From NCBI RefSeq assembly GCF_041261445.1, contig NZ_JBGCCU010000002.1, positions 1 to 64,000 on the forward strand: DNA of 64,000 nt. Direction: 5' to 3'. Within the stretch, counting starts at the first letter, position 1, and every line of letters begins with the position of its first letter. The position numbers and the translations under genes are program-made. Origin of the DNA: Catenulispora sp. EB89. GTDB lineage: Bacteria > Actinomycetota > Actinomycetes > Streptomycetales > Catenulisporaceae. Below, one piece after another: positions 35,338-46,434 of the stretch. A model generated the notes under the pieces. That model ran no database searches and was not told the origin of the DNA. It saw nothing but the letters and a program-made list of their open reading frames with translations.

Positions 35338-36249
35338 CTAGCCGAACCGCCCGTTCACGTAGTCCGAGGTCCGCTCGTCCCGCGGGTCCTCGAACAGCTG
35401 CCGCGTCGGCCCCGCCTCCACGATCCGCCCCGGCGTGTCGTGCGTGGCCAGGAAGAACGCGCAGTTCTGCGACACCCGCGCGGCCTGCTGCATGTTGTGC
35501 GTGACGATCACGATCGTCAGCCGCCCGCGCAGGTCGGCGATGGTCTCCTCGACCCGGCGCGTGGACGTCGGGTCCAGCGCGGAGCAGGGCTCGTCCATCA
35601 GCAGCACGTCCGGCTCCACGGCCAGCGAGCGCGCGATGCACAGCCGCTGCTGCTGGCCGCCGGACAGCGCGCCGCCGGGCGAGCGCAGCCGGTTGCGCAC
35701 CTCGGTCCAGAGCCCGGCCTGCGTCAGGCTGGTCTCCACCAGCTGGTCGCGCCGCGCCTTGCCGGCCTTGATGCCGGCCAGCTTCAGGCCGCTGACCACG
35801 TTGTCGTAGATGGACATCGCCGGGAACGGGTTCGGGCGCTGGAACACCATGCCGACCCGGGCCCGGACGTCGGCCGGACGGCGCCCCGGCGCGTAGATGT
35901 CGTCGCCGGCCAGCAGCACCTGCCCGGCCAGCTGCGCCGACTTCACCATCTCGTGCATGCGGTTCAGGATCCGCAGGTACGTCGACTTCCCGCAGCCGGA
36001 CGGCCCGATCAGCGCCGTCACCTCGCCGGGCTCCATGGCCAGCGACACCCGCTCCAGCACCTTGTGGTCGCCGAACCAGGCGGACAGGTCGCGGGTCTCC
36101 AGGCCGACCAGCCGGCCCGGGCGGCCGGCGCCCGGGTCCCGGCCCGCGCCGGGGTCGTCCGGACCGCCCGGGACGGCCGGCAGCTGCTCGGTCGGAGCGT
36201 CCGCGGTCGAGGCCGTCGCCACGCCGCCGTACTCGTCTATCTCGGTCAT
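35338..36249 (-). CDS. pstB: Phosphate-type ABC transporter ATPase PstB
   Basis: 303 aa including an ~45-residue disordered N-terminus absent from most PstB. Walker [10 protein letters not shown] (82-90), signature [20 protein letters not shown], Walker [14 protein letters not shown], switch IVTHNMQQA; PstB hallmark NRMHEMV and [17 protein letters not shown]. Last gene of a six-gene operon; 13-base gap after the sortase-like gene. Energises PstC/PstA. Confidence 0.93.
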
Positions 36250-36262
36250 CGTGGTCCCAGAT

Positions 36263-37276
36263 TCAGTAGAGGTTCGGCAGCAGGACGGTGGCGTTCTCGT
36301 ACACGCACCACAGCAGCGCGGCCAGCACCGGCGCCATGGACAGGTACGCGGCCCGCCGGTTCCACACCACCGCGAGCGCCACCGTGGCCACCACCGCCAG
36401 GGCCAGCGCCAGCGCCCACAGCTGCAGGGCCGGCCAGGCGTCGGTGTCGGAGGCCAGCGGCTTGTCCAGGTCGGTGCGGGCCCCGGTCTGCCCGGAGCCG
36501 GCGTCGGCCGGGCCGTCCAGCCGCGCGCCGACGTAGACGGCGTGCGTCGGGATCCACGTCGAGTCCCCGGTGGCCAGCACCAGCCGGTTGGGGAAGGTGT
36601 CGGCGACCGGCTTGCTCCCCTGCCCGAACGCGTTGACGGTGTAGGTGTAGGTGCCCTCGCCGGTGGTGACGGTGATCTTGTCGCCGATCTCCAGCTTCGG
36701 CAGCCCCGCGAACGGCGCGCCGAACGTCCCGCGCCGACCCATCAGCACACTGACACCGGGCTGCCCGGGCAGCACCGTGTACCGCACGTGCCCCGGCCCG
36801 CGCGCCAGATCCGCGCCGGTGGTGCCCTCGACGACGACCGTCTGGTGCAGCCCGAGCCGGGGGATGTCCAGGATCATCAGCGGTGCGCCGTCGGGCGCCG
36901 GCCCGGTCGGTGCAGTGGCCTGGGCGAGCTCGCCGGCGAGCGCCCGGTACAGGTTGGCCTGGCTGTGCTGCTCCTGGAGCCCGCTCAGGCCGAACGCGTA
37001 GACGCCCCAACCGAGCAGCAGCACCGCCGCCAGGCTCGCGGCGGTGGAGGCCATCCGGACGGCGCGCAGACCCCGGCCCTCGCGCAGCCCGGCGCGCAGC
37101 GCGGCGAGCGACGGCCGCGGCACGGCCGGCTCCGCAGCGGGCCGCGGCTCGGCGGCGGCGGCGCCGACCTCCGGAACGGTCTCGGTCTCGGACTCAGACT
37201 CGACCTTCGGGACCGCCGGCGCGATCGGCTCCTCCGCGGCCGGGTCCACGGCGGGTTCCGCGGTGGGCGCGGTCAT
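36263..37276 (-). CDS. Catalytically degenerate sortase-fold membrane protein
   Basis: 337 aa. Disordered Ala/Pro/Glu N-terminus (1-75), a membrane helix (~77-96), an extracytoplasmic sortase-like beta-barrel (~130-255) and two C-terminal membrane helices (~285-305 and 311-328). The barrel aligns with class E sortases ([39 protein letters not shown]), but the catalytic His of the GHR motif is Arg181 and the Cys of the TC motif is Gly237 (LVLATGDS); the usual Arg near the end is also not seen. ATG overlaps the PstS-like stop (ATGA). Probably a binding or scaffold protein in the transporter rather than a transpeptidase (inference). Confidence 0.85.
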
Positions 37277-39165
37277 CTGCCGCGCCCCTTCTCCTCGCCG
37301 CCGGACTGGGACACCCCGGTCATGAACGCCGCGTCCCGCTCCGCTGCCGCGAGCTTGCGGCGCCGCACCAGCATGCTGCCGAACACCGGCGGCACGATCA
37401 CCACGGCCAGCAGTTCCAGCGAGGTGAGGCCGGCCATCAGCTTCGGATCACGGTGCTGGGGCACGTCGGCGACCACCGACGCGGCCCCGCCGACGGACCC
37501 TCCGCTGTCACCGCCGGTGCTTCCCGAGCTGTCGGTGGGCAGCCCGGTCAGCGGGTCGACCCCGCCTGCCGTGCCGCCGCCGGTGCCGCCGGCGGTCCCG
37601 CCGGTGGTGGTGCCGCCGGTGGTGGTGCCGCCGGTAGTGCCACCCGTCGTCCCGCCGGTGGTCCCGCCGCTCGACCCGGACGAACCACCGCTGGACCCGC
37701 CGGACGTCCCACCGCTCGTGCCGCCGGTGGTCCCGCTCTTCTTACCGCCCGACCCGCCGGTGGTACCGCCGGTCGACCCGCCCGAGGTGCCGCCGCCGGT
37801 GCCGCCGCCGACCGTGCAGTTCAGCGGCGCGCCGGCCTTGTCGCACGGGCTCGGCTGCGGGGCGTCGACCAGCACGGTCAGCTGACCGGCGGAGTTGAAC
37901 GTGGGGTTCTGGCAGTTGGCCAGGGTGTTGGGATCCACACCCGTCGCCTGTCCGGGGACGTGCGACAGCTGCAGCATCCCGCCGCGCACCAGGTTCCGCG
38001 GGATCGGCGAGTACCCCAGCCGGTCGGCTTCGGCCTGGCCGGCGCACAGGATGTAGGCGGCGTACTTGGACAGCGCGGCGCCGTGGTCGGTGCTGGCGCG
38101 GGGCAGTGCGGGCAGCGTCCCGGTGTCCCTGGGCACGATGATGTAGCTGTAGCTGGAGATCGGGTAGGACCGCGGGTCGGTCATCGTGTAGACGCCGTCG
38201 AGGTTCTGCTGCAGGTAGTTCGGGTCGCTCGGCGACGTGGTGTCGTCCACGCCGCGGATCTTGGCCGCGGTCAGCGCGATCGCCACGTTCGACGCCGTCG
38301 GGATCGTGTAGTACCCGGCCGGGTTCAGCACCTTGACGACCGGCCAGTTGTTCAGCTTGGCGTACGCGTACTCGTCGTAGCCGATCGCGCCCTCGCCGGT
38401 CGGGGACATGATGAAGTTGGCCACCACGTCCGAGCCGTTCTCGCTGTGCATGTTGCTGGTCGGGGGCGTCGGGAAGAACTCCGTGTAGTCGCCGCACGGG
38501 ACGCCGTTGATCGAGGTGCAGTAGGCGTCCCACTGGGCCTTGTGCGTGTGCTCCATGTACCGGGTCCACTGCGCGGTCGCACCGGAGCCGTCGGAACGCA
38601 CCACCGGGGTGATCGGCTCGTGCGGCAGGTTGCCCGGGTACTCGGCCTTGATCCGCGGGTCGTCCCACATCGTGATCTGGTTGGTGAAGATGTCGACCAG
38701 CACGTCCGGGGACAGCCGCAGGTTCGTGACCTGCTTGCCGCCGATGTGCAGGTTGTACATGAAGGTGGTGCCGCCGGCGGTCACCGGCACGTAGGAGTAG
38801 CGCCACGTCGGGTTCTCGACGGTGCCCTGGCCGTTCGAGTGCTGCGACTGGCTCAGGCCGGCGTCGTCCACGCTGCGGAAGGGCACGTCGGTGGCGGTGA
38901 AGTCGTCCAGGCCGTTCGTCCAGTCGGTGCGGCCGGCGGCCGAGCCGTTGGGGGCGTAGTTGATGTTGATGCCCAGCGGCAGCACGTCTCGGCGCCACTG
39001 GTCCAGCGCGGGCCCGCTCCAAGAGGAGCCGGAGCCGCTCAGCGCGGTGTCGGCGTGCGCCGGGGTGGCGGCCGGCAGCCCGGCGGTGGCGGCCAGCGCC
39101 GCGACGCCGACGGCGGCCGCGAACAGAAGCGGATTTCGAAATCTCAAGGCACGTACTGTCTTCAC
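37273..39165 (-). CDS. Membrane-anchored PstS-like protein with Gly/Thr/Ser linker
   Basis: 630 aa. Signal sequence (RNPLLFAAAVGVAALAATAG) then a PstS-type binding domain (~38-430) with GSGSSWSGPALDQWRRDV, TDVPFRS, IFTNQITMWDDP and VVRSDGSGATAQWTRYM. Next a Gly/Thr/Ser-repeat spacer of ~85 residues (about 453-535), one membrane helix (~580-599, TSLELLAVVIVPPVFGSMLV) and a cytoplasmic tail with RRRKL. GTG overlaps the pstA stop (GTGA). Longer readings overlap pstA entirely and are rejected. Differs from usual PstS, a lipoprotein or secreted protein, by the C-terminal anchor. No LPXTG. Confidence 0.88.
   Translation of the reverse strand: MKTVRALRFRNPLLFAAAVGVAALAATAGLPAATPAHADTALSGSGSSWSGPALDQWRRDVLPLGININYAPNGSAAGRTDWTNGLDDFTATDVPFRSVDDAGLSQSQHSNGQGTVENPTWRYSYVPVTAGGTTFMYNLHIGGKQVTNLRLSPDVLVDIFTNQITMWDDPRIKAEYPGNLPHEPITPVVRSDGSGATAQWTRYMEHTHKAQWDAYCTSINGVPCGDYTEFFPTPPTSNMHSENGSDVVANFIMSPTGEGAIGYDEYAYAKLNNWPVVKVLNPAGYYTIPTASNVAIALTAAKIRGVDDTTSPSDPNYLQQNLDGVYTMTDPRSYPISSYSYIIVPRDTGTLPALPRASTDHGAALSKYAAYILCAGQAEADRLGYSPIPRNLVRGGMLQLSHVPGQATGVDPNTLANCQNPTFNSAGQLTVLVDAPQPSPCDKAGAPLNCTVGGGTGGGTSGGSTGGTTGGSGGKKSGTTGGTSGGTSGGSSGGSSGSSGGTTGGTTGGTTGGTTTGGTTTGGTAGGTGGGTAGGVDPLTGLPTDSSGSTGGDSGGSVGGAASVVADVPQHRDPKLMAGLTSLELLAVVIVPPVFGSMLVRRRKLAAAERDAAFMTGVSQSGGEEKGRGR
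37561..37809 (-). repeat. Gly/Thr/Ser codon-repeat tract in PstS-like gene
   Basis: In-frame low-complexity DNA encoding GGT, GGS and TTGGTT units (about residues 453-535), with near-identical 9-12 bp repeats (for example around 37600-37650). Likely prone to length change. Confidence 0.85.
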
Positions 39166-40445
39166 GAGGCGGGCTCCGGTTCCGGATGGATGACGGCTGG
39201 GGCGGCGGGCACGGGGCGCTCCGCCGGCGGCCGGGACTCGACAGTCACCGCCGCCACGGCCCGGTCGCGGGCCATCTGCCGCAGACGGCGCCGCGACAGC
39301 TCTCCGGGCCGGCGGCCGCCCGCGATGCGCGCGGCGACGAACAGGATCATGACGATCGTCATCAGCGCCAGCGCGGCGCCGAAGGCCCGGACCTTCATGT
39401 CGGCCTGCGGGTAGCGGACGTAGTTCCAGACGTACAAAGGCAGGCTGATCTGTGCACCGCTGAAGGGATTCGCGTTCTTGCGCGGGGTGAAGCCGGCGGT
39501 CAGCAGGACCGGCGAGGTCTCCCCCACCGCACGCGCCATGCCGAGCAGGATCGCGGTGGTCAGACCGGAGCGCGCGGTGGGCAGCACCACTTGCCAGACG
39601 GTGCGCCACTGGCTGCCGCCGAGCGCGTAGGAAGCCTCGCGCAGGGTGTTGGGGACCACCCGGATCACCACCTCGGAGGCGCGGGTGACGATCGGCATCA
39701 TCATCACGGTCAGCGCCAGCGACGCGGCGAATCCGCTGCGGTCGAAGCCGAAGGCCAGGATCCACGCGCCCAGGACGAACAGGCCGGCGACGATCGACGG
39801 CAGCGCGGTCATCGCGTTGACCACGGTGCGCACCGGCTGCGCGAGCCGGCCGCCGATCTCGGACATGAACACCGCGGCCGAGATGCCCAGCGGCACCGCG
39901 AACAGCGTCGCCAGGCCCAGCTGCTCCACCGAGCCGATCATCGCGTGCAGCACACCGCCGCTGTTCAGGCCGTCCAGCGGCCCGGTCTTCTGCATGTCGG
40001 TGGTCAGGAAGTTGCCGTGTCCCAGCACGTCGGACCCGCGCCAGGCGACGTAGGCGATCTGGTCCGCCAGCACAGCCAGCACCAGCAGACCGGCGCCGGT
40101 GAACACGGCGGACGCGAGCTTCTCGCGCACGTGCCGGGCCTCCCACTGGGTCCGGGCGATCCCCCAGTAGAAGGACAGGAACGCCAGGTACCAGCACAGC
40201 CAGAAGCCCAGGGCGCCGGAGAAGGGCATGATCCGCTCGTACACCAGCCAGACCAGCCCGAGCGCGCCGGCCGCGGCACCGGCCAGGGTCCCGACATCGG
40301 CCGCGGTGACCGAGCCGGGCCGGACCTGGACCTGGCCGGCGTTGTCCAGGTAAGCGGTGCGCGCGCCGGAAGCGGTGGGGTCCACAGTGAAACTCCGTCC
40401 GGCGGAGTCGACGTACGTCATGGCGGCGTCAAACCTCTCACTCAT
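39162..40445 (-). CDS. pstA: Phosphate-type ABC permease PstA
   Basis: 427 aa, longer than usual (~290) because of an ~150-residue N-terminal region with two to three extra membrane segments (LGFWLCWYLAFLSFYWGIAR). Permease motifs: AVFMSEIGGRLAQPVRTVVN, MTALPSIVAGLFVLGAWIL, and the coupling EAA loop LREASYALGGSQWRTVWQVV. ATG overlaps the pstC stop by 8 bases. Confidence 0.92.
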   Translation of the reverse strand: MSERFDAAMTYVDSAGRSFTVDPTASGARTAYLDNAGQVQVRPGSVTAADVGTLAGAAAGALGLVWLVYERIMPFSGALGFWLCWYLAFLSFYWGIARTQWEARHVREKLASAVFTGAGLLVLAVLADQIAYVAWRGSDVLGHGNFLTTDMQKTGPLDGLNSGGVLHAMIGSVEQLGLATLFAVPLGISAAVFMSEIGGRLAQPVRTVVNAMTALPSIVAGLFVLGAWILAFGFDRSGFAASLALTVMMMPIVTRASEVVIRVVPNTLREASYALGGSQWRTVWQVVLPTARSGLTTAILLGMARAVGETSPVLLTAGFTPRKNANPFSGAQISLPLYVWNYVRYPQADMKVRAFGAALALMTIVMILFVAARIAGGRRPGELSRRRLRQMARDRAVAAVTVESRPPAERPVPAAPAVIHPEPEPAS

Positions 40446-41547
40446 TGGTCGCGGCGCCGGAGCGCGAGCGCGAGATGACCGCGGCCGCGACCAGGTTGAC
40501 CAGCAACGTGATCGCGAACAGCACGAGCCCGGCGGCCATCAGGGCGGACAGCGCGAGCTTGTCGGACTCGCCGTAGCGCAGCACGATCAGCGAGGAGATG
40601 GAGTTGGCTCCGGCCTGCAGCGGATGCGTGGTGATGACGAACACCGGCGAGATGATCAACGCCACCGCGATGGTTTCACCCATGGCCCGGCCGAATCCGA
40701 GCATCACCGCGCCGATCACACCGCCCTTGCCGAACGGCAGCACGACGGTCCGCACCATGCCCCACCGCGTGGATCCCAGGGCGTACGCCCCCTCGCGCTC
40801 CCCGACCGGCGCCTGCGAGAAGACCTCGCGCGACAGCGAGCAGACGATCGGTATCACCATCAGGGACACCACCACGCCGGCGATGAACGCCGACTGGGTG
40901 TAGGAGGCCGCGATGCCGCCGTTGCGCACTTTCAGGAACGGCAGCACACCGCCCAGATGGGTGGCCGCCCAGCGCTCGATCCCGATGATGCGGGGCGTGA
41001 GGAAGAACAGCCCCCACAGGCCGTAGACGATGCTCGGGACCGCCGCCATCAGGTCGATCAGCGAGATCAGGGCCCGGCGCGCCCCGGAGGGCGCGTACTC
41101 GGAGATAAACACCGCCGCGGCCAACGCCACGGGCACCGCGATCAGCAGCGCGATGCCCGCGATGATGATCCCGTCCAGCAGCACCGCGCCGACACCGAAC
41201 CGGTGCGCCGCTGTCTGCCACCGCTGCTCGGTCAGGAACGACCAGCCCGTGGCGTGCAGAGCCTGCGCACCCCGGGTGGCCAGGAACAGCGCGATCAGGC
41301 CCATGATGGCGAACACGGACAGACCGGCGGCCCGGAAGACCACCCGGAAGATCCGGTCCCCCCGGGAAACCCCGGGGATGATGTGGATCGGCGTCTGGTC
41401 CCCGGCGGCCGGATCACTCCCGGAGCCGGGATCGGACGGCGGCACGGGCGGTGCGCCGAAGATCTCGTCGACGAGGCCCTCGGCCCCCGCCGGACCGGCG
41501 CCGGCCATCGCCGGCCGGCGCCCCGTCGAAGCCTGCACCGCGCTCAC
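40438..41547 (-). CDS. pstC: Phosphate-type ABC permease PstC
   Basis: 369 aa with six to seven membrane helices. Motifs: EYAPSGARRALISLIDLMAA, VPSIVYGLWGLFFL and coupling loop EREGAYALGSTRWGMVRTVV. Contains an ~85-residue Gly/Pro/Ala N-terminal extension. GTG overlaps the large binding protein stop (GTGA). Confidence 0.92.
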   Translation of the reverse strand: MSAVQASTGRRPAMAGAGPAGAEGLVDEIFGAPPVPPSDPGSGSDPAAGDQTPIHIIPGVSRGDRIFRVVFRAAGLSVFAIMGLIALFLATRGAQALHATGWSFLTEQRWQTAAHRFGVGAVLLDGIIIAGIALLIAVPVALAAAVFISEYAPSGARRALISLIDLMAAVPSIVYGLWGLFFLTPRIIGIERWAATHLGGVLPFLKVRNGGIAASYTQSAFIAGVVVSLMVIPIVCSLSREVFSQAPVGEREGAYALGSTRWGMVRTVVLPFGKGGVIGAVMLGFGRAMGETIAVALIISPVFVITTHPLQAGANSISSLIVLRYGESDKLALSALMAAGLVLFAITLLVNLVAAAVISRSRSGAATNE

Positions 41548-44374: not shown

Positions 44375-44959
44375 TCAGGAGGCCGGCGTGTAGCTGACGT
44401 TCAGGGAGCCGACGGTCTGCCCGGCGGTGAAGAAGGTGGTGTGCAGCGCGCTGTCCAGGTACGCGGCGCCGGCCGAGTCGAGGACGGCGTCGCCGTTCAG
44501 CGTCTGCGGCGTGGTGCCGATGCCGCTGCCGATGGTGTTCAGGCCCAGGTCGAACAGGGCGACCGGCGCGGTCGCGCCGTCGGGAACCGCGGCCAGCGCC
44601 TCGGTGTCGCCGCCGAGGGTGACCTGGTGCAGGCAGACGATCCGGCCGGTGCGGGCGTCCGCGAACGCCAGCCCGCCGCCGAGGGTGACGGTGCCGGTGA
44701 ACCGCGCCAGGTCGGCGTTGCCGCCGGTGACCGGGAAGGTCACGGTGGCGCCGGTGGTGCTGTTGTAGCTGCCGGTGGCGGACGGGAGCGGCACAGCCGC
44801 GATGCCGGACTGCAGCGCCGAGGTGATGAAGGCGTTGGAGGCGGTGAGGGCGACGGTGCCGGAGGCCGGGGTGCCGGTGGCGCTGGCGGCCGGGAGGGCG
44901 AACGCGGTCGCGGCGAAAGCGGCGGCGGCGGCGAGCGAACGCACGGCGATGCGGTTCAT
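44375..44959 (-). CDS. Secreted hypothetical protein (HtaA-like pattern)
   Basis: 194 aa. Signal peptide (MNRIAVRSLAAAAAFAATAF, cleavage near 28), then a beta-rich domain (FTGTVTLGGGLAFADARTGR, IVCLHQVTLGG) faintly reminiscent of HtaA-type haem-binding domains, but without a clear match. ATG with AGGAG five bases upstream. Separate transcript between two phosphate-type units. Function not assigned. Confidence 0.65.
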   Translation of the reverse strand: MNRIAVRSLAAAAAFAATAFALPAASATGTPASGTVALTASNAFITSALQSGIAAVPLPSATGSYNSTTGATVTFPVTGGNADLARFTGTVTLGGGLAFADARTGRIVCLHQVTLGGDTEALAAVPDGATAPVALFDLGLNTIGSGIGTTPQTLNGDAVLDSAGAAYLDSALHTTFFTAGQTVGSLNVSYTPAS

Positions 44960-45130: not shown

Positions 45131-46213
45131 TCAGATACCGGCCTGGGGCGTACCGCAGCCGCTGCCCAGCTTGTGGAAGCCGAAGCTCGTGACCACGGCC
45201 TGACCGGTGGTGCCACACAGCCAGCCGCCGGTGGTGCCGTTGTTGCGGCCCAGCAGGCCCTTCAGGCGCGGGCCCTCGGTGGCGTCGGACCAGTCGCTCT
45301 GACGCACGACGTGGTAGACGCTGCGGGTGTAGGTCCCCGACAGAGCGCTGTTCCAGTCCTGGCTCGCCGTCAGGATCTGCGCGGTGGTGTCCAGGGTGCG
45401 GACGGGGGACAGGTAGCCGGGCAGGTCGCTGCCGCCGCCCTTGCTGTCGTAGGCCTGGCCGACGTAGTGGCTCAGGGAGTACGGGTAGATGACGTCGGGG
45501 TCGTTGAACACCGCGTCAGTGCCCTCGTTCTCCTCCGGGCCGTAGGACTCCCAGCACGGCTCCGTCGTCGCCGTGATGCCCAGCGCCTTCAGGAAGAACG
45601 CGCGGGTGCCGGAGCTGGCCTGCGGGAGGTAGACCTTGATGGTGTCGGTGGAGGCGGTGTGGTTCGTGGGCAGGCTCGCCCACGTGGTGTAGGTGCAGTT
45701 GTAGATGCCGGTCAGCTCCGCGCTGGTCAGCGTCTTCGGCCCGTTGGTGTCGGCCGGGGAGGTCGAGGTCGGGGTCTTCGACGACCAGCCGACGCCGTCC
45801 ACCGCGAACGGGATGAACCAGTCGGTGGAGCCGGTGTTCGGGCCCCGCGAGGAGCGGGCGATGTCGACGGTGGAGTTGGTGGTGGCGTTCAGCTCGGTGA
45901 TACCCGCACCGGAGCCGTTCGGCCGGGCGATGCTGCCGGCGCCGGACTTCGGCGTGATCGAGGCGGAGCCGGTCGCGTCCCAGCTGTAGTACTTGCCGGT
46001 GCCGTCGGCCAGGCCCGGGTAACCGCCGGTCCGGTCCGACGAGATGCCGTTGTCGAGCGCCTGGATGGTGTCCGAGCCGACCGACACGATGTCGGTGGAG
46101 TTCGGGGTGACCGTCGGGTCGGCCGAGGCGGTGCCCATGGACGCCGCGACGACGCCCAGGCTGACCGCGGCGACCGCCGAGGTCATAGCAAGCTTACGGG
46201 TGACAGAGCGCAT
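45131..46213 (-). CDS. Secreted phosphate-binding-like protein PstS
   Basis: 360 aa. Signal peptide (MRSVTRKLAMTSAVAAVSLG, ASA cleavage near 30); mature start DPTVTPNSTDIVSVGSDT. Periplasmic-binding-type motifs: LTSAELTGIYNCTYTTWASL and YLPQASSGTRAFFLKAL. No lipobox Cys near the cleavage site and no C-terminal anchor, so secreted. ATG at 46211-46213 with AGGAGG six bases upstream; the longer in-frame extension is rejected. Separate transcript from the pst operon. Substrate (phosphate) not proven. Confidence 0.85.
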   Translation of the reverse strand: MRSVTRKLAMTSAVAAVSLGVVAASMGTASADPTVTPNSTDIVSVGSDTIQALDNGISSDRTGGYPGLADGTGKYYSWDATGSASITPKSGAGSIARPNGSGAGITELNATTNSTVDIARSSRGPNTGSTDWFIPFAVDGVGWSSKTPTSTSPADTNGPKTLTSAELTGIYNCTYTTWASLPTNHTASTDTIKVYLPQASSGTRAFFLKALGITATTEPCWESYGPEENEGTDAVFNDPDVIYPYSLSHYVGQAYDSKGGGSDLPGYLSPVRTLDTTAQILTASQDWNSALSGTYTRSVYHVVRQSDWSDATEGPRLKGLLGRNNGTTGGWLCGTTGQAVVTSFGFHKLGSGCGTPQAGI

Positions 46214-46434
46214 TACTTTCCTCCTGCAAGGGGGACTGGTCCTTGCGGGAATGACATTCGCCGAACGGCTCCGTCCCGACCAGGGTTCAAGGTCTTTACG
46301 GCCCGCGGCCGAGCGCGCCGCGCCCCGCACAGATGTGCTGCTGAGGGGGTGTGTGAGGACCCTGAAACACAGCGGGGCGGAACCCGGTGTGCTTCCGGCA
46401 GTGGCGCGGTAGTGCCGTCTTCGGGGCCCCGCGT

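Follow-up and report, generated by a model that had tools for sequence, protein, structure and literature searches.

We analysed a 64,000-nucleotide stretch of the genome of Catenulispora sp. EB89 (contig NZ_JBGCCU010000002.1, positions 1 to 64,000; hereafter the window), in which a gene for a sortase-fold protein, designated PSRT here, lies among the genes of an ATP-binding cassette (ABC) importer resembling the phosphate transporter Pst (Table 1). The gene had been picked out in a sequence-only reading of the window, which claimed a sortase fold without a catalytic triad, three membrane helices and a tie to a phosphate-type operon.

The sortase fold was supported. The Pfam Sortase family (PF04203) matched PSRT with 57.6 bits, above the gathering cut-off of 26.6, and class E sortase (NF033747) was the best NCBIfam family, with 72.9 bits under a cut-off of 160. 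Structure prediction with AlphaFold2 (pLDDT 89.3) and structural alignment to sortases found the barrel present, with sortases as the top structural matches. The alignment also reproduced the loss of the triad. Arg181, within the sequence MGRRGT (residues 179–184), replaces the His of the GHR motif, Gly237, within ATG (residues 235–237), replaces the Cys of the TC motif, and the usual Arg is gone as well, Ala246 standing in a column that holds Arg in 39/39 of the active relatives listed. A search elsewhere in the protein for a catalytic Cys/His pair yielded no replacement: with the sole Cys (Cys324) lying in the last helix and His residues at positions 104, 144, 163 and 245, the barrel lacks such a pair. 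His163 is conserved to a similar degree in both groups (97% of the inactive and 95% of the active relatives). Judged from its sequence, PSRT is almost certainly non-catalytic. The model agrees with the claim of three membrane helices, the long helices spanning residues 57–118 (membrane part ~79–97), 278–304 and 307–331, with the third under a simple hydropathy cut-off. The N-terminal tail is long, acidic and of low confidence in the model, and is taken as inside.

The operon is transcribed in the order PBP3, a small secreted protein, PBPbig, pstC, pstA, the PstS-like gene, PSRT and pstB. The last six genes are joined by overlaps and a single 13-base gap, and the first two are separated by ~170-base gaps. 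As the sequence-only reading had it, PSRT overlaps the PstS-like gene by four bases (ATGA, 37273–37276), and the 13-base gap (36250–36262) lies between PSRT and pstB. Compared with the Pst transporter (PstSCAB), PstA and PstC score above their NCBIfam cut-offs and PstB just under its own, TIGR00972 being by far the best family for this ATPase. The PstS-like protein (P0124; GTG start placed at 39165) falls under the PstS family cut-off (TIGR00975, 158.4 vs 205 bits); its homology to solved PstS proteins is clear, sequence comparison showed most ligand motifs of PstS retained, and hydropathy places a membrane helix at residues 580–598. Unlike PstSCAB, the window operon encodes an inactive sortase and three PstS-like proteins, of which two carry a C-terminal membrane helix. 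PBPbig consists of N-terminal beta strands, a PstS fold at ~286–742 and a C-terminal membrane helix; the PstS fold is barely detected by sequence profiles and was recognised from the model only, with no convincing sequence match among solved structures (best E 0.31). PBP3 likewise gave no convincing match among solved structures (best E 0.29); its open frame extends to 46483, and we place the start near 46216 from the signal peptide.

PSRT belongs to a large family of inactive proteins. Its closest named relatives are from Catenulispora, and full-length inactive proteins occur in Catenulispora, Kitasatospora and Streptomyces; the sequence sources mostly name the relatives 'sortase', 'sortase A' or 'class E sortase'. 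Of the near relatives (120 listed of 138, the window's own included), 105 carry R and 15 carry K in place of the His, and the position of the Cys is taken by A, G, S or T, with Gly or Ala in 106/120. All 120 type-2 relatives listed (of 1857) have R at the His site; at the Cys site, 119 have A and one has S. Searching with the early-branching protein of locus L083 (120 listed of 160) gave 39 proteins with His and Cys, 2 with His and Ser, and 79 with neither. Among the matches listed, 319 of 360 distinct proteins are thus inactive, and the His site is R or K in 319/319, as against His in 39/39 of the active relatives. Among early-branching relatives, many retain the Arg and have Ser in place of the Cys.

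The triad was apparently lost once in this lineage. A 70-row tree built without the triad columns separated all 42 non-active rows from the other rows by a branch supported at 99/99, its bootstrap being not fully settled. The triad Arg is retained in 17/42 of these rows, and most simply, Cys and His would have been lost first and Arg later. A 113-row tree, which had the triad columns in, shows at the nearest fork L090 and six short active sortases (P0312 and P0322 included), with active two-helix forms just outside; no active group stands out at this fork as the sister group. Those active class E-like sortases that have a hydrophobic pair at the C-terminus (for example P0274, L122 and L132) share the whole-length architecture of the inactive proteins and lie near the inactive clade, but keep His and Cys. 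Their form is possibly the ancestral architecture. The proteins of L122, L124, L125, L132 and L133 are of this active kind, with a conserved Pro near the end, and are encoded away from pst genes.

The core of the inactive proteins is under purifying selection in the pairs computed (3 of 7 for the domain, 2 of 7 for a longer stretch), with NG86 values of 0.07–0.40 and YN00 values of 0.07–0.10. The N-terminal tail is under weak constraint (dN/dS 0.5–1.05 in three of 7 pairs), and its length differs among relatives, as far as the called starts are reliable.

The genomic context was compared across stretches of up to 20 kb around relatives, in which operon genes were mapped by tblastn. The 36 distinct inactive loci come from search hits matching over the full length and do not form a random sample; their stretches measure 3.5 to 20 kb. 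L005, L060, L093 and L094 are short fragments of contigs carrying few genes, and the stretch of L088 stops short of pstB. The counts exclude duplicates (L055, L056 and L058, which repeat L003, L002 and L004, respectively) and short search loci. Among the 18 active loci are L130 and a Clostridium locus (L007), and ABC ATPase hits of < 150 bits in L007, L089, L091 and L122 were not counted as pstB. The tie to the phosphate-type operon extends far beyond this genome, as pst genes adjoin 36/36 inactive loci, and they are absent from the fetched stretch in 18/18 active loci. The expected seat of the gene between pstS-like and pstB was found in part: in 31/36 inactive loci (exceptions L083, L084, L123, L129 and L088) the next gene of the operon downstream, on the same strand, is pstB, but the gene is not always next to pstS. 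The short search loci give the same picture wherever the triad is readable; two active ones, L103 (the place of L122) and L121, show a PstB-query match. In L130, from genome G247, the sortase-like gene (L130:9641-10630) has His and Cys codons in one frame with an in-frame stop between them, one search showing two in-frame TAG, and is either broken or read by another code.

PSRT also occurs together with PBPbig. Among 147 genomes of the order, a full-length inactive protein was found in 20, and PBPbig in the same 20; the chance of such agreement is ~4e-25, the real figure being much weaker owing to shared descent. The lower-scoring matches in this sample have His and Cys in 10/10 cases with loci (L043–L052).

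Two layouts prevail around the inactive gene. The window-type layout runs PBPbig, pstC, pstA, pstS, sortase, pstB, and the second runs pstC, pstA, pstS, PBPbig, PBP3, a wall-linked protein, sortase, pstB; the latter occurs in Streptomyces-like genomes and as a second copy in the window's genus, and further departures are seen in L083, L084, L123 and L129. The wall-linked part varies: it may be an Ig-like protein, a set of Ig repeats joined to PBP3, or a WxLIP protein with a WxL-like partner. An Ig-like wall protein with a sorting-signal-like end lies inside the pst-type operon in 5/36 loci (Table 1), so that LAxTG-type wall proteins were rejected as a general partner; the Ig-like gene of L067 has a mis-called start and overlaps the preceding gene. 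WxLIP proteins were noticed in actinobacterial pst-type operons at 10 loci (L070, L071, L072, L081, L082, L092–L095 and L128), with a WxL-like partner in 8; the WxLIP protein of L070 scores 41.7 bits with Pfam, above the cut-off, those of the other loci were assigned by tblastn match, and the partner was judged WxL-like by eye. We know of WxL systems from low-GC Gram-positives only. Because the wall-linked parts vary while the inactive sortase is constant, a role with the transporter is likelier than one with a wall anchor.

Table 1. Features of the PSRT operon in the window and wall-linked genes at related loci
Feature	Position	Strand	Basis or remark
PstB-like ATPase	35338..36249	minus	TIGR00972 341.0 bits, cut-off 343.2
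PSRT, inactive sortase-fold protein, 337 aa	36263..37276	minus	Pfam match, open frame, AlphaFold2 model
PSRT C-terminal helix pair, residues 278-304 and 307-331	36284..36445	minus	model; hydropathy
PSRT sortase barrel, residues 130-258, taken as outside the membrane	36503..36889	minus	AlphaFold2 strands and VIA alignment ranges
Ala246 codon, catalytic Arg site	36539..36541	minus	alignment
Gly237 codon, catalytic Cys site	36566..36568	minus	alignment
Arg181 codon, catalytic His site	36734..36736	minus	alignment
PSRT first membrane helix, ~residues 79-97	36986..37042	minus	hydropathy and helix 57-118 of model
PstS-like binding protein with Gly/Ser/Thr-rich stalk and C-terminal membrane helix	37273..39165	minus	PBP_like_2 104.5 bits; PDB PstS matches
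DPLTG motif, stalk of PstS-like protein	37543..37557	minus	
PstA-like permease	39162..40445	minus	TIGR00974 210.4 bits, above cut-off
PstC-like permease	40438..41547	minus	TIGR02138 249.9 bits, above cut-off
PBPbig, second anchored binding protein, 886 aa	41544..44204	minus	model; C-terminal membrane helix
Small secreted protein, no known family	44375..44959	minus	conserved beside related operons
PBP3, third soluble protein, weak PstS similarity	45131..46216	minus	TIGR02136 32.9 bits, cut-off 206.6
Ig-like wall proteins, LASTG end	L065:10740-12128, L067:7626-9449, L068:10780-12240		
Ig-like wall protein, MASTG end	L063:10410-12086		
Ig-like wall protein, MAATG end	L069:7837-9516		
WxLIP and WxL-like genes of L070	L070:11314-12555 and L070:12689-14284		

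Several further observations were made on the operon and its genome. Five further loci of the window's genus also have the small secreted protein between PBP3 and PBPbig, and its conservation in L059 is weak. In the PstS-like proteins of L063, L065, L067, L068, L069, L083 and L084, the Asp of a ligand motif (SDxP) is changed to Glu (SEIP), which might alter their choice of ligand. Control of the operon through a PhoP box was rejected, as a pattern search gave 5 matches where 5.7 were expected, with no match immediately upstream of the operon; a phage origin was rejected too, with no PHROGs match. The same genome (G000) also has a second pst operon with an inactive sortase, arranged in the other layout (G000:C25:163000-182900, locus L070), and an ordinary-looking pst set at G000:C2:747441; in the separate pstS-pstC-pstA set of the genome, PstS looks like a lipoprotein.

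A candidate ligand of the inactive barrel was noticed in the stalk of the PstS-like proteins, which is otherwise mostly a Gly/Ser/Thr run. The motif [VILAM]DPxTG is present in the stalk in 22/32 of these proteins, including those of the distant loci L123 and L129, and in 21 of them it lies 65–96 residues from the C-terminal end. We found no [VILAM]DPxTG in PSRT, PstB, PstA, PstC, PBP3 or the three wall-linked families, in a scan translated from the start of each BLAST hit, from which motifs nearer the N-terminus can escape. PBPbig has [VILAM]DPxTG in 5/30 and plain DPxTG in 8/30 cases, and that of the window has two IDPxTG copies in a low-confidence loop. DPxTG resembles the LPxTG of sortase substrates with Asp in place of Leu, and the inactive barrel is basic at the catalytic-His site. 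As 10/32 PstS-like proteins lack the motif and similar turns exist in unrelated proteins, DPxTG is a lead, not a result, and it is improbable that this motif is what PSRT grips.

PSRT shares with class E sortases (NF033747; SrtE of Streptomyces, PDB 5cuw and 5go5/5go6) the barrel fold, the N-terminal membrane helix, the Gln106 helix, and the GPGH and PGQ.G motifs. Unlike them, it has His, Cys and Arg all replaced, a shorter stretch between strands 6 and 7, and two extra C-terminal helices. The family suggests an evolutionary series from active sortases, through forms with His and Cys lost and Arg kept, to forms with all three lost and a shorter groove. Among importers, the anchored repeat-type ABC transporters of actinobacteria (TIGR03770–TIGR03773) also tie importer genes to cell-wall-anchored proteins; these systems are metal-type, with LPxTG-anchored repeats, and we know of no inactive sortase in them. 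TIGR03770–TIGR03773 were not among the 15 families matched by the window PstC.

PSRT is, as far as genes and sequences tell, very probably a dedicated part of this transporter system. Fold, triad loss, a single apparent origin, purifying selection, pst linkage and co-occurrence with PBPbig in one order were all computed, and on balance we favour the view that the pseudo-sortase has been retained to serve a Pst-like ABC importer, whose binding proteins are tethered by C-terminal membrane helices, as its dedicated accessory subunit. A class E-like sortase lineage would have lost its chemistry and kept its fold. The protein would be embedded in the membrane through one helix in its N-terminal part and two in its C-terminal part, beside PstCA and with its barrel on the outside, and the old substrate groove, with its conserved Arg/Lys at the catalytic-His site, would grip a tethered binding protein without cutting it. 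The gripped segment could be, for example, the DPxTG of the PstS stalk, and the binding proteins would then be docked or positioned over the permease. Such a docking or positioning role, to which the genetics, the retained fold and the stalk motif point, falls just short of an even chance in our estimation. It is attractive to speculate that a whole sortase clade became a non-catalytic, peptide-gripping importer subunit, the change from His to Arg/Lys turning an LPxTG groove into a DPxTG docking clamp for tethered receptors, albeit we consider this full version unlikely.

Several observations weigh against the accessory-subunit reading. Pst transporters work in other bacteria without such a partner, and the lengths of the groove stretch in inactive and active proteins overlap. 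The inactive gene adjoins pstB more constantly than pstS, fitting a permease/ATPase role. Because related genomes share operons by descent, the 20/20 agreement with PBPbig represents fewer than 20 independent events, and in one of these genomes (G021) the PBPbig match is a 54-residue fragment. Across the loci PBPbig was found in 30/36, the misses being four contig pieces of < 10 kb, L004, which ends inside pstC, and L083, whose full 20-kb stretch has a second PstS-like gene instead. For the early-branching metagenome members the context is known from L083 alone, and L084 has its pst genes on the other strand. The PstS-like proteins without DPxTG (L059, L070–L072, L081–L084, L092 and L128) belong here as well.

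The main rival reading would make PSRT a subunit that gates PstCA-B or signals there. If the barrel senses the outside or the occupancy, PSRT would regulate the permease and ATPase, either by gating them or by signalling through its acidic N-terminal tail. The constancy of pstB as the next gene downstream, the three membrane helices, and a tail that is acidic, of low confidence and taken as inside would all suit such a subunit. Nevertheless, the tail through which it would signal is weakly constrained and variable in length among relatives, and the co-occurrence extends to an outside binding protein, not to pst genes alone. We regard a regulatory subunit as possible, though doubtful. Rather less probable is a cofactor or decoy of active class E sortases, which would bind sorting signals and hand them over or hold them back. 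Apparently active class E sortases (L011, L012 and L014) are encoded in the same genome as PSRT, and the five loci with an adjacent Ig-like wall protein provide LASTG, MASTG or MAATG ends. Such a wall protein is, however, confined to those five of the 36 loci and missing from the window operon, and other loci have WxLIP-type genes instead, or a third binding protein with fused Ig repeats.

PSRT might still be an enzyme through other residues, an idea to which the early-branching relatives, often with Ser at the Cys site and Arg kept, lend some colour. We consider this very improbable, as (i) the corresponding sites in the window protein are Arg, Gly and Ala, with the sole Cys in a membrane helix, and (ii) the Cys site is Gly/Ala in 106/120 of the near and Ala in 119/120 of the type-2 relatives listed. 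The absence of all catalytic residues could also be expected of a decaying, functionless sortase gene carried in the operon. We rejected that reading because the core is under purifying selection in the pairs computed and an apparently single loss was followed by wide diversification, and the Arg/Lys at the His site in all 319 proteins and the full-length copies in three genera make it scarcely credible.

The sequence-only reading had stated that a pseudo-enzyme serving as a docking or binding subunit for the anchored binding protein would be new. The searched literature, which covers few subscription papers, yielded no description of a family of inactive sortases or of any sortase encoded in a pst operon. 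We know of no other non-catalytic sortase family with a fixed partner system, so that the present one, if genuine, would be the first known to us. Many actinobacterial proteins named 'sortase' or 'class E sortase' would then not be sortases; in one search, which returned 1857 proteins at E <= 1e-15, all 120 listed lack His and Cys at the triad sites. If docking is shown, it would constitute a new kind of use for the sortase fold, and the finding bears on how Gram-positive importers with tethered binding proteins unite receptor and permease.
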